Origin: Oscillospiraceae bacterium
GTDB taxonomy: Bacteria; Bacillota; Clostridia; Oscillospirales; Ruminococcaceae
Assembly: GCA_015067185.1 (NCBI GenBank)
Contig: SVMZ01000005.1
Span: forward strand, 51,023-115,022
Length of the DNA stretch: 64,000 nt
Direction of reading: 5' to 3'
The translations under genes and the position numbers were made by a program. This document shows positions 8,510-11,283 of the stretch, one piece after another; positions within the stretch are counted from its first letter, which is position 1, and the number at the start of each line of letters is the position of its first letter. The notes under the pieces were generated by a model, which had not been told where the DNA came from, ran no database searches, and saw only the letters and a list, made by a program, of their open reading frames with translations.

Positions 8510-10009
8510 CTATTCCAACGGCGTGTTTACGGTACCAATAAAAAGAAGAGAATTGTCGGAACCCGTGATGGCAAAGAGGAAGGGGCGGTTCAGGACAAAA
8601 TCAATCTCATCAGCGACAAGAGCACCGCCGGCTTCAGCAATAAGTGTGGTGTATGCGGCTGCGGTGCATCCTTCTTCATCAATGGATACACGAGCCGCAT
8701 GACGAGCCTGAGAAAGATAGATCTCTTCTATATCCTGTGTGAGAGGAGAAAAGTCCGATACGGTATAATCAAAAACATCGGTGATACCAAGCGAGAGCAA
8801 CGTGTCAATGAGATCGATATCCGAGGAAACATCGAATTTGGGAACGGAAAGATTGACCAAAAGCTTCTGTGAAGAAACACCTTTGGCGGTATGATCTGTG
8901 GTGAACATAGTGAGAAGCTTGGGATTGCGGATTACCTGCGCGGGAGAAACACCTTCATCAGGAAGAATCAGCCACATGTTTCCTGTGTAGGCAAGAGCGT
9001 GGGAAACAGCTGAAAAGTTTTCACCGTCAAAAAATGTTTTGATATTGGTCTGGTGCATGAAGTCACAGGTGATATCGCCGTTTGGAGTGTGGAAAACAGC
9101 TTCGGAAGTAACTTTTGGGGAGAAAGCATCTTCCCAGCTTGCCTGAAAATATATGCAGGAAACAAGAGCCATAACCGTATCGGGATCGAGTGATAGTCCG
9201 GCGGCTTCTTTGGTCAGCAGATCACCAGTATGGGTATTGATCCAATCCCTCAGAGCAGTATCCATCTCATCTGACCCCGGTTCTCCGGCAAATGATGAGG
9301 TGTAATAGTGACTTGCAAGCTTTTCTAATGTAGTTCGGTCATATTTTATGGCATCGTCCAGCCAGATAGAGTTGGAAAGAAGACTGGTGGTGTGGCCGTC
9401 GAAAATATAATTGGCATGCCAGACATTGGAAACGGTTTGGCAGAGTGTGTGAAGAGAGGATTCACCAAGCACATCAAGAATCTGCCGGCGGCTTTCTCCT
9501 TCGGTCACCTCGGAGAGCATACTCAATGCGAGATAGAGATTGAGCGGAGAGCATACGCGGTTTTCGTTATTGGAAGAGGTGAGAAGGGGAGGGAGGACGG
9601 TGGAATAAAAGTGATTCAGATTGGTATTTTGCGGAGGAGAATCGGAGAGGCGCCGATGGTAATCGGAACTCCAGGGTTCCAAGGCCTTCTGATAACGCGC
9701 ATCGTCCAGATAACCTGTTTCCGGGTCGATATAGTCGTTGATGTCGGGATATTGTGCACGGGTGGGATAGACAGCCTGGGTGATGGCAAGAGGGGAGTCA
9801 AAAAGGATATTGCCATCAGAGGGGGGAATATCGGGCTGTGTACGGTGGGAAAATAAAAAGATGGATCCAAAAACAAGCAGTGCACAGGCAGCAACAGAGG
9901 CAAGGGATATAATCAGTTTAAAGGGGCGTTTTTTTCTGTATTGATCGGCGGCAGCAGTCATTTCATTATCGATGGCACCGATGGCATCCATCAGGTTATC
10001 CGGCTTCAT
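8510..10009 (-). CDS. membrane-anchored serpin with anti-sigma-like N terminus
   Basis: A 499-residue serine-protease-inhibitor fold attached to the membrane. Residues 1-31 are a charged cytoplasmic segment (DAIGAIDNEMTAAADQYRKK), residues 32-53 a single membrane helix, and residues from about 110 on the serpin domain. The hinge EEGCTAAAY begins at residue 445, and the serpin signature DFVLNRPFLFAI follows. Counting from the hinge puts P1-P1' near Gly461-Gly462 (within two residues), a small-residue site that would suit elastase-like proteases. The short cytoplasmic segment resembles those of clostridial proteins paired with ECF sigma factors, and the gene overlaps the upstream sigma-factor gene by 4 bases. 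Fold is sure; the regulatory link is inference. Confidence 0.88.
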   Translation of the reverse strand: MKPDNLMDAIGAIDNEMTAAADQYRKKRPFKLIISLASVAACALLVFGSIFLFSHRTQPDIPPSDGNILFDSPLAITQAVYPTRAQYPDINDYIDPETGYLDDARYQKALEPWSSDYHRRLSDSPPQNTNLNHFYSTVLPPLLTSSNNENRVCSPLNLYLALSMLSEVTEGESRRQILDVLGESSLHTLCQTVSNVWHANYIFDGHTTSLLSNSIWLDDAIKYDRTTLEKLASHYYTSSFAGEPGSDEMDTALRDWINTHTGDLLTKEAAGLSLDPDTVMALVSCIYFQASWEDAFSPKVTSEAVFHTPNGDITCDFMHQTNIKTFFDGENFSAVSHALAYTGNMWLILPDEGVSPAQVIRNPKLLTMFTTDHTAKGVSSQKLLVNLSVPKFDVSSDIDLIDTLLSLGITDVFDYTVSDFSPLTQDIEEIYLSQARHAARVSIDEEGCTAAAYTTLIAEAGGALVADEIDFVLNRPFLFAITGSDNSLLFIGTVNTPLE

Positions 10010-10566
10010 AAGAGAAAGCCCTCCTTTTTAAGATGTGTTTTAAGGCCGCTGCGAAGACGAAAAAGTAAGCTTTTTACAGCGGACTGGGTCATGCCGCAGG
10101 AGGCGGCAATATCGGAGAGGGGATCAAGAAAGAAATATCTCATAAGAAATACGTTGCGATCCCGTTCAGAAAGGGTGCGAAGATAGGATTCGATGGTACC
10201 GGTGAGCAGAGAGAGTTCCACGGCAGATTCAGGAGTGTCATTGCCGGAAACACATTCGTTCAGCTCTTCCAGAGAGAGGGAATATTCGGTTATGCGGCGT
10301 TTGGAAGCGTTTTTGCGGCGGAAAAGATCGATGGAAAGCTCCCGTGTGATTTTTGCGAGATAGCCGCGCAGGATCTGAGGACGATGTGGGGGAATGGAGT
10401 TCCATACCCTCAGGTAAGTATCATTGACAGCTTCGGCGCTGTCGGAAGGATCATTTAAAATATTGAAAGATATTTTTTTCAGATATCGTCCGTATTTTTT
10501 ATCTGTTTCAGATACTGCGTTTTCGCTGCGATTCCAGTATAACTGTACAATGGAACTGTCATCCAT
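10006..10566 (-). CDS. ECF-like sigma-70 family RNA polymerase sigma factor
   Basis: This 186-residue protein has region 2 (residues about 20-85, with DSAEAVNDTYLRVWNS and the ITRELSIDLFRRK core) and region 4 (about 125-180, LSERDRNVFLMRYFFLDPLSDIA and a helix-turn-helix at MTQSAVKSLLFRLR). No regions 1 or 3 are present, as expected for the ECF class. The ATG at 10566 has a perfect AAGGAGG (10580-10574) seven bases upstream. Its stop overlaps the serpin start by 4 bases, giving translational coupling and a sigma/partner operon. The target promoters are unknown; autoregulation is possible. Confidence 0.9.
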   Translation of the reverse strand: MDDSSIVQLYWNRSENAVSETDKKYGRYLKKISFNILNDPSDSAEAVNDTYLRVWNSIPPHRPQILRGYLAKITRELSIDLFRRKNASKRRITEYSLSLEELNECVSGNDTPESAVELSLLTGTIESYLRTLSERDRNVFLMRYFFLDPLSDIAASCGMTQSAVKSLLFRLRSGLKTHLKKEGFLL

Positions 10567-10647
10567 GAAAAAACCTCCTTGTCGTTGTAAGACGTCTTCA
10601 TGAATAGATACCGTAAAAAAAGTAAAAAAGTTTTGTGCCGCAAGAAA

Positions 10648-10677: not shown

Positions 10678-10730
10678 AAACACAAAAAGAATGTACATCG
10701 CTCTTGTAGCTGTACATTCTTTTTGTGTTT
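10678..10730 (-). terminator. long hairpin terminator overlapping a stop codon
   Basis: Perfect 20-bp arms (10678-10697 and 10711-10730) enclose a 13-base loop that has its own GCT/AGC pairing. The 3' arm includes two bases of the stop codon of the upstream minus-strand gene, and the T-rich arm supplies the run of U. It separates the glucosaminidase-like gene from the sigma/serpin operon. Confidence 0.75.
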
Positions 10731-11283
10731 ATATGGTTTGAAGCAGTTTGGATCGAAAAGGTGTTTTTGACAGACAGGAGGTGTGTTTGGAAGATAGCTG
10801 AAAGGGGGCTTGGTATGAGGAGGCTTTCAGGATACGTTCCAGTTCATCGGAAATAGTATTCCGCCAAAAATCTGAGTTGTTATAGAAAAGGCTGACAGCG
10901 GCTACGGTATAACCGTTGAAATATTTACCTCCCACCGTGAGATAGTTTTTCTTTATCAGAGGAATGATTGTTTCAAGACAGGAGATATCGTCCGAAAATT
11001 GCATCAAAGTACCGTCATATCCCATCCAGCCAAACCAATTGTGCAGATCAGGGCGGCGCTCCCAGCGCATGACAGCGGCAATGAATTCTGCGGAAATGTG
11101 TTGCTCAGCGCAGATGCGAATCACATCTTCAGCCAGATGACGGGATTCGGGGTGCATATATTCTTTCAATATTTCCGCATCGAGATTGCTTACTGTTCTC
11201 AAGTCATAATCAGAGGCCATTGCGGTGATATTCATGGAAAAGAAAAGTAAAGCAGAGAGTGTAAGAAGTAAAAATTTTTTCAT
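10729..11283 (-). CDS. secreted glucosaminidase/lysozyme-fold-like protein
   Basis: A 184-residue protein with a clear signal peptide (MKKFLLLTLSALLFF, cleavage near TAMA-SDY at about residue 24). The mature part contains ISAEFIAAVMRWER, NWFGWMGYDG, a Gln-Phe element, Asp-rich turns and GKYFNGYTVAAVSLFYNN. The order resembles the beta-N-acetylglucosaminidase (GH73-like) lysozyme fold, with the Glu in RWER (near residue 75) as candidate catalytic acid. Similarity is judged by pattern only. If correct it would trim peptidoglycan outside the cell. It lies directly upstream of the sigma/serpin operon on the same strand but is separated by a strong hairpin. Confidence 0.55.
   Translation of the reverse strand: MKKFLLLTLSALLFFSMNITAMASDYDLRTVSNLDAEILKEYMHPESRHLAEDVIRICAEQHISAEFIAAVMRWERRPDLHNWFGWMGYDGTLMQFSDDISCLETIIPLIKKNYLTVGGKYFNGYTVAAVSLFYNNSDFWRNTISDELERILKASSYQAPFQLSSKHTSCLSKTPFRSKLLQTI

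Follow-up and report, generated by a model that had tools for sequence, protein, structure and literature searches.

The sigma factor–serpin gene pair

The window, that is, the whole stretch of 64,000 nucleotides analysed here, contains a gene for an ECF-type sigma factor and a gene for a membrane-anchored serpin (Table 1). The serpin gene is directly downstream of the sigma gene and co-encoded with it, and is in this respect placed as an anti-sigma gene. The two genes share four bases, ATGA, in agreement with the overlap reported in the preliminary description of the locus. The start codon of the sigma gene, an ATG at position 10566, is preceded by the Shine-Dalgarno sequence AAGGAGG. The sigma protein matches the Pfam families Sigma70_r2 (E = 1.8e-8) and Sigma70_r4_2 (E = 4.1e-9), both above the cut-offs, and the NCBIfam model TIGR02937. 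It is assigned to the ECF type by the presence of sigma regions 2 and 4, with the other sigma regions unmatched in Pfam and NCBIfam.

Table 1. Features of the sigma factor–serpin locus in window coordinates
Feature	Position	Strand	Basis
ECF-type sigma factor, 186 aa	10006..10566	-	Sigma70_r2, Sigma70_r4_2, TIGR02937
Membrane-anchored serpin, proposed anti-sigma factor, 499 aa	8510..10009	-	PF00079; AlphaFold2 model
ATGA overlap, sigma stop / serpin start	10006..10009	-	sequence
Predicted cytoplasmic tail, residues 1–30, proposed sigma-binding module, MKPDNLMDAIGAIDNEMTAAADQYRKKRPF	9920..10009	-	profile A1
Predicted membrane helix, residues 31–54	9848..9919	-	hydropathy; model, low confidence
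Outer linker, residues 55–131	9617..9847	-	alignment A2; model
Serpin domain, residues 132–497	8519..9616	-	PF00079; Foldseek to solved serpins
Hinge and reactive centre loop, residues 447–470, GCTAAAYTTLIAEAGGALVADEID	8600..8671	-	sequence
Candidate ECF-type promoter AAAC-16-CGG	10609..10633	-	weak; resembles congener G120 by eye
Inverted repeat between upstream gene and sigma gene; arms of 20 nt, perfect; loop of 13 nt	10678..10730		

The inverted repeat bounds the pair on the sigma side, and the next long frame downstream of the serpin gene is on the opposite strand; therefore, the unit appears to consist of two genes and to hold no other candidate for an anti-sigma factor. The repeat is perhaps the terminator of the upstream gene; it went undetected in a simple terminator scan. 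The serpin is the only one detected in its genome, which is about 81% complete. Across the repeat, positions 10729–11283 of the minus strand encode a small protein with a signal-peptide-like start, which weakly matches an NCBIfam peptidoglycan hydrolase model (38 bits, cut-off 500). In genome G120, of the same genus, a further serpin (L054) is encoded directly upstream of the sigma–serpin pair; it has a hydrophobic helix and gives no match to the tail module described below.

The candidate promoter is weak, and no regulon is claimed, because it is not enriched genome-wide: a search allowing one mismatch gave 14 matches, the same number as the reversed control. A strict ECF-like promoter pattern was found in 2 of 61 upstream regions, and the count of dyads was swamped by AT-rich words.

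Domain organization and predicted structure of the serpin

The serpin is predicted to consist of an inner N-terminal part, one membrane helix, and an outer domain. The match to PF00079 covers the serpin domain with an E-value of 8.7e-59. The linker that precedes it contains a Tyr-Pro pair at residues 81–82, Pro88, and Trp113, all invariant in the 18 rows of alignment A2. The AlphaFold2 model, calculated as a single chain, has a mean pLDDT of 73 and contains helices formed by residues 4–24 and 31–54 in addition to the serpin domain. The tail and the membrane helix are of low confidence (10-residue means of 37–59), so the membrane helix call leans on hydropathy more than on the model. A Foldseek search with the model placed tengpin (PDB: 2vh4 and 2pef) at ranks 1, 3, and 4. 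In the model the reactive loop is partly a strand, and latent and cleaved serpins are numerous among the matches; we regard this as a prediction artefact and do not read the native state of the serpin from it.

Several features given in the preliminary description are borne out by this analysis, namely the single membrane helix, which is predicted from hydropathy, the length of the cytoplasmic segment, given as about 31 residues and close to the tail of about 30 residues delimited here, and the intact hinge and signature of the serpin. The latter two are present as DEEGCTAAAYT and FVLNRPFLF, which we take to be the serpin signature. The protein does not contain the Hx3Cx2C zinc motif in its sequence, and it has no match to zf-HC2 or DUF4179 in Pfam, nor to the RsgI N-terminal domain in Pfam or NCBIfam.

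The predicted cytoplasmic tail accompanies sigma factor genes

Profile A1 is based on the tails of 18 serpins, five of which were already known to be adjacent to sigma genes. In the genome of the window it detects five significant proteins, with E-values from 3.7e-21 to 1.8e-6, and three further matches with E-values from 0.9 to 5.9 were excluded from the count. The five are the window serpin and four proteins of 277 to 394 residues; none of these four matches a serpin or, at cut-off, any Pfam family. A search of the same genome with the sigma protein gave five close paralogs including itself (E ≤ 5.8e-38) and three distant ones. The five tail-module proteins pair one-to-one with the five close paralogs, and the sigma gene is directly upstream every time; the other four pairs are located on contigs C24 (from 9254), C45 (from 38212), C28 (below 11580), and C44 (from 66889) of this genome (G000). 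Two of the three distant sigma genes are partnered by DUF4367 proteins.

When 41 genomes of the family were searched with A1, 29 matches were found in 18 genomes, and 27 of the 29 have a sigma gene directly upstream. Sixteen of those 27 pairs share the ATGA overlap. The two matches without an upstream sigma gene are weak, and the motif is absent from them. The independent part of this comparison is provided by the non-serpin proteins, 25 of 27 of which are sigma-adjacent, one of the 25 (L085) by a weak tail match and a short sigma frame. The N-terminal part of the serpin is thus common to other sigma partners, both in its own genome and in the family. The module is outside Pfam: none of 32 non-serpin partners matches any family there, and an NCBIfam anti-sigma model is matched by just two of them, weakly (best E = 4.7e-4). 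Together, the tail and the hydrophobic helix form a module found beside such sigma genes almost without exception, whatever ectodomain follows.

The sequences of the tails and of the sigma factors co-vary. In 68 sigma–tail pairs from 55 genomes, the distances between sigma factors and the distances between tails are correlated with r = 0.50, a set that includes the partner of a distant sigma gene (L069; tail match E = 0.0055). This value was reached by none of 2000 free shuffles and by none of 3000 swaps of partners within genomes. The removal of seven weak rows (L069 and six more) lowers the correlation to 0.36, with none of 2000 within-genome shuffles reaching it. The signal is weaker for the pairs with E-values below 1e-6 (r = 0.32; 21 of 2000 within-genome shuffles). 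Non-serpin pairs alone give r = 0.49 (9 of 2000), and serpin pairs alone are a set without power (1008 of 2000). The within-genome comparison rests on few genomes, since only seven hold more than one pair.

Sigma factor coupling of tailed and secreted serpins

The serpins compared here came from 170 distinct frames, two of which turned out to be a single gene. Among the 38 distinct serpins that carry the A1 module, 35 have a sigma gene directly upstream, and they represent 25 genera and 10 families. For a comparison that includes all types of N-terminus, 166 serpins were scored with a mechanical N-terminus classifier (L131 was left out, its upstream DNA being too short), and a serpin was counted as coupled if a sigma gene lies within 100 bases. 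Of the tailed serpins, 41 of 48 are coupled, versus none of 105 with a lipoprotein or signal peptide (Fisher p = 2.4e-30), the secreted class being a sample in which about 45 places were fetched from one serpin set of at least about 150 and the other sets were fetched whole. For thirteen serpins no class could be assigned, as the frame runs far upstream or the helix is below the threshold. Eight of these have the tail module and are all sigma-coupled; their addition gives 49 of 56 tailed versus 0 of 105 secreted, and the other five were left out. Some coupled rows are near-identical (L183 and L185, L135 and L137), and a genus-level count was therefore used: 31 of 33 genera of tailed serpins are coupled versus none of 68 genera of secreted serpins (p = 5.5e-24), and the coupled genera, over all tail types, belong to 12 families. 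The ATGA overlap is identical to that of the window in 24 of the 49 sigma-coupled serpins.

The preliminary description had called for a search for sigma genes beside N-terminally anchored serpins and had named conservation of the gene pair in related genomes as a point on which its proposal could fail. The search gave the 49 of 56 above, and the pair recurs in 31 of the 33 genera. Since the arrangement recurs in tailed and in no sampled secreted serpins, it is more than chance.

The seven uncoupled rows among the 56 are of different kinds. L017, counted as tailed and uncoupled, is in fact a lipoprotein. The rows L164 and L177 represent one gene, which follows a coupled serpin as the second member of a tandem and has no sigma gene directly before it. 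At L150, a sigma gene is present at a distance of 262 bases upstream. No sigma gene was found beside the tailed serpins L169 and L188. In the last, L175, the tail is shortened and we could find no adjacent sigma gene, and its tree neighbours L174, L176, and L178 have both tail and sigma gene; it is perhaps a case of uncoupling in progress.

Other tails and a probable split form

Fourteen sigma-coupled tailed serpins are below the threshold of profile A1, and one of them, L168, visibly has the same module. The other tails, grouped by eye and without clustering, fall into a group of L156, L174, L176, and L178, a group of L183, L185, and L187, a group of L135 and L137, and the single serpins L096, L098, L179, and L201. 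Both sigma regions, 2 and 4, are present in the neighbours of L135 and L201. In the group of L183, L185, and L187, the domain scan covered the neighbours of L183 and L187 (that of L185 is outside it); each is a hybrid in which an HTH_3 domain is combined with sigma region 4 and sigma region 2 is unmatched. These regulators (L183:1783-2283 and L187:1775-2362) are an odd type of partner for a tailed serpin.

A tree calculated for 132 serpin domains requires 18 changes between secreted and tailed forms by parsimony and at least seven by well-supported branches. The tree leaves out L009, L051, and L181, which have long branches, and eight tailed rows with a lipoprotein-pattern label, including P0001–P0003, P0037, P0064, and P0119; its tailed rows include 12 proteins (with P numbers) judged by protein sequence and not by genomic neighbours. 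An earlier tree was restricted to 45 secreted serpins, the first of the 97 near-distinct ones at the loci, and both trees were quick ones with SH-aLRT support only. By these counts, the joining of a serpin ectodomain to such a tail, or its parting from one, happened repeatedly. One further protein, P0068, is an ABC transporter ATPase joined to a serpin in 685 residues and is possibly an assembly chimera.

A sigma gene, one intervening frame, and a secreted serpin follow each other in this order in 14 of the 105 secreted cases, a raw count given without a chance rate. The middle frame contains the A1 module in five of these (L026, L102, L106, L120, and L200) and a zf-HC2 anti-sigma domain in L184; the remaining ones encode, as judged by eye, small tailed membrane proteins. 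This order is likely a split version of the fused system. Separation in some genomes and fusion in others is the pattern expected for parts that work together.

Hinge and reactive centre loop

The hinge of the window serpin, GCTAAAYT, has a glycine at P15 and small residues at P12–P10 (numbered P15–P1 by the established serpin convention), as inhibitory serpins do. Non-inhibitory serpins usually lose the small residues at P12–P10. With a pattern that itself required the glycine, a hinge could be placed in 47 of 51 sigma-coupled serpins, every one of them with small residues at P12–P10. Among serpins uncoupled to sigma genes, the hinge was located in 76 of 113, and P12–P10 are small in 74 of the 76. 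The sequences of the sigma-coupled serpins thus look like those of active inhibitors that have not decayed. The kept hinge speaks for an intact inhibitor and not for a signalling role, because uncoupled serpins keep it equally well. The reactive loop of the window serpin has small residues around the expected P1, which, given established knowledge of serpins, suggests an elastase- or subtilisin-like target protease of host or microbial origin.

Proposed mechanism and alternative explanations

The shared tail, the coupling of tailed serpins, and the co-variation of tails and sigma factors make it most likely that the serpin domain serves an anti-sigma factor as its ectodomain. The serpin had been placed in the anti-sigma position by the preliminary description, and this assignment passes the comparative tests: the tail is shared with other sigma partners, the pair is kept in all but two genera of tailed serpins, tail and sigma factor co-vary, and no other candidate is present in the unit. 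We consider it probable, on these sequence comparisons, that the serpin is the anti-sigma factor of the overlapping sigma gene and that protease capture by the serpin domain would trigger release.

In this mechanism, the inner tail would bind the sigma factor and hold it at the membrane. An outside protease would cut the reactive loop, and the insertion of the loop together with the covalently trapped protease would disturb the linker between the serpin and the membrane. In Bacillus subtilis, the binding of lysozyme outside the cell to RsiV, the anti-sigma factor of sigma-V, makes this protein accessible to signal peptidase, and a further cut by RasP in the membrane then frees the sigma factor (passages of PMC6066255). 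If this cascade is taken as a general route, loop cleavage and capture may start the same cascade: a site-1 cut of the serpin would be followed by a cut by the site-2 protease of the genome, and the freed sigma factor would then switch on the expression of its regulon. A site-2 protease of family M50 is present in the genome of the window (E = 1.1e-62). No signal-peptidase-like site was found in the window linker with a crude AXA pattern. We rejected an RsiV-like signal peptidase site as evidence, the AXA pattern matching 27 of 53 linkers and also positions inside some membrane helices. Since a given serpin molecule could fire only a single time, the output would be a count of protease hits. 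That the cleavage or trapping of a protease could be signalled across the membrane to the sigma factor, as the preliminary description proposed, is plausible given the kept inhibitory hinge and the precedent of RsiV. On a wider scale, we give about even chances to the idea that bacteria of the Clostridia kind repeatedly made a suicide inhibitor into a one-shot membrane receptor, in which a single trapped protease irreversibly frees a sigma factor and hits are counted, with the serpin ectodomain on several unlike tails, some of them beside the HTH–sigma-4 hybrids.

The comparative evidence for the anti-sigma role would serve equally well for a serpin that acts as a fuse and not as a receptor. 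Its domain would then only shield a juxtamembrane site, and protease in excess would exhaust the serpin and cut the linker. The kept inhibitory hinge fits this as well, but the linkers differ widely in both length and sequence, and inspection by eye of the 53 listed showed no cleavage site common to them. We regard the fuse as an unlikely reading. Somewhat less probable still is that the serpin is a regulated product, a membrane-anchored surface inhibitor made from a sigma operon whose true anti-sigma factor is elsewhere. Serpins do occur as operon products, as the 14 of 105 secreted serpins that are the third gene behind a sigma gene and one other indicate; however, the unit of the window appears to be of two genes, the tail of the serpin is a module of non-serpin sigma partners, and the serpins with a lipobox or signal peptide, which could be exported or anchored anyway, are never sigma-adjacent in the sample of 105.

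The two remaining alternatives set protease or function aside. The serpin domain could be a non-inhibitory sensor, responding to a bound ligand or to unfolding by heat or acid with no protease involved. Some serpins are indeed established as non-inhibitory carriers, for example in hormone transport (passages of PMC6718151), and the other four partners in the genome of the window are neither serpins nor members of a Pfam family at cut-off; against this, every located hinge of a sigma-coupled serpin has small residues at P12–P10, and we regard such a sensor as improbable. Finally, the two genes could be chance neighbours with an overlap of no functional meaning, for which only the general density of bacterial genes speaks. 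This is already contradicted, and retains hardly any probability, given the coupling in 31 genera and 12 families over all tails, the ATGA overlap in about half of the coupled serpins, and the recurrence of this tail type alone in 35 of 38 serpins.

Relation to known systems

Of the known systems, RsiV and RsgI come closest to the proposed design. RsiV resembles the proposed serpin system in that an ECF sigma factor is held by a single-pass anti-sigma factor, the outer part of which binds an enzyme, and is released by site-1 and then site-2 cleavage (passages of PMC6066255). It differs in its DUF4179 domain, which holds the signal peptidase site, and in binding lysozyme; unlike RsiV, the window serpin would react covalently, and no more than once. 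SigI falls outside the classical ECF sigma factors. The SigI/RsgI systems of cellulolytic Clostridia are similar in having membrane anti-sigma factors with interchangeable outer sensing domains, which bear CBMs (passages of PMC12484212, PMC3413522, and PMC3990059), but RsgI senses polysaccharides, and the window protein has no RsgI domain match. Class I anti-sigma domains also bind sigma factors and are often parts of membrane proteins with further fused domains (passages of PMC7406223), whereas the tail of the window serpin has about 30 residues, no Hx3Cx2C motif, and no Pfam match.

Siropins and other serpins of gut bacteria share the serpin fold (passages of PMC5127057 and PMC6718151) but are supposedly secreted (PMC6718151). 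Membrane-anchored prokaryotic serpins have already been noted (passages of PMC8233489), and one serpin of C. thermocellum is noted as a membrane protein, with no signalling role given in those passages of PMC6718151. Tengpin is similar to the window serpin in its bacterial serpin fold and in an N-terminal extension linked to the conformation of the serpin; its tail stabilizes the native state (passages of PMC8233489), which provides a precedent for coupling the state of a serpin to the segment that precedes it. It differs in having no sigma link, and the word 'sigma' occurs zero times in the searched text of PMC8233489. It is likewise absent from the text of the review of bacterial serpins (PMC6718151), and the review of ECF sigma factors (PMC8103513) contains none of the terms sought in it, including lysozyme and protease inhibitor.

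We know of no other anti-sigma factor that uses suicide inhibition for sensing. Among the papers found in the open-licence literature of PubMed Central, a scope outside which preprints and subscription papers lie, no serpin is described in an anti-sigma role in titles, abstract openings, and passages, and serpins and anti-sigma factors are not linked in the passages of PMC12484212, PMC3413522, PMC3990059, and PMC10059941. Because the papers found do not link the two, we judge the proposed anti-sigma factor with a serpin ectodomain, and suicide inhibition as its sensor chemistry, to be new; anti-sigma factors with sensing ectodomains as such are already known from RsiV and RsgI, and bacterial serpins acting as inhibitors of host proteases are known too.

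The physiological roles of bacterial serpins have been called elusive (passages of PMC6718151). The search with the serpin tail exposes an anti-sigma-like module that is absent from Pfam and is joined to many ectodomains lacking an assigned ligand. If the proposed role is true, bacterial serpins would gain a signalling function, and the serpin would be an irreversible, stoichiometric sensor module that gives such bacteria a direct route to sense proteases, for example neutrophil elastase.
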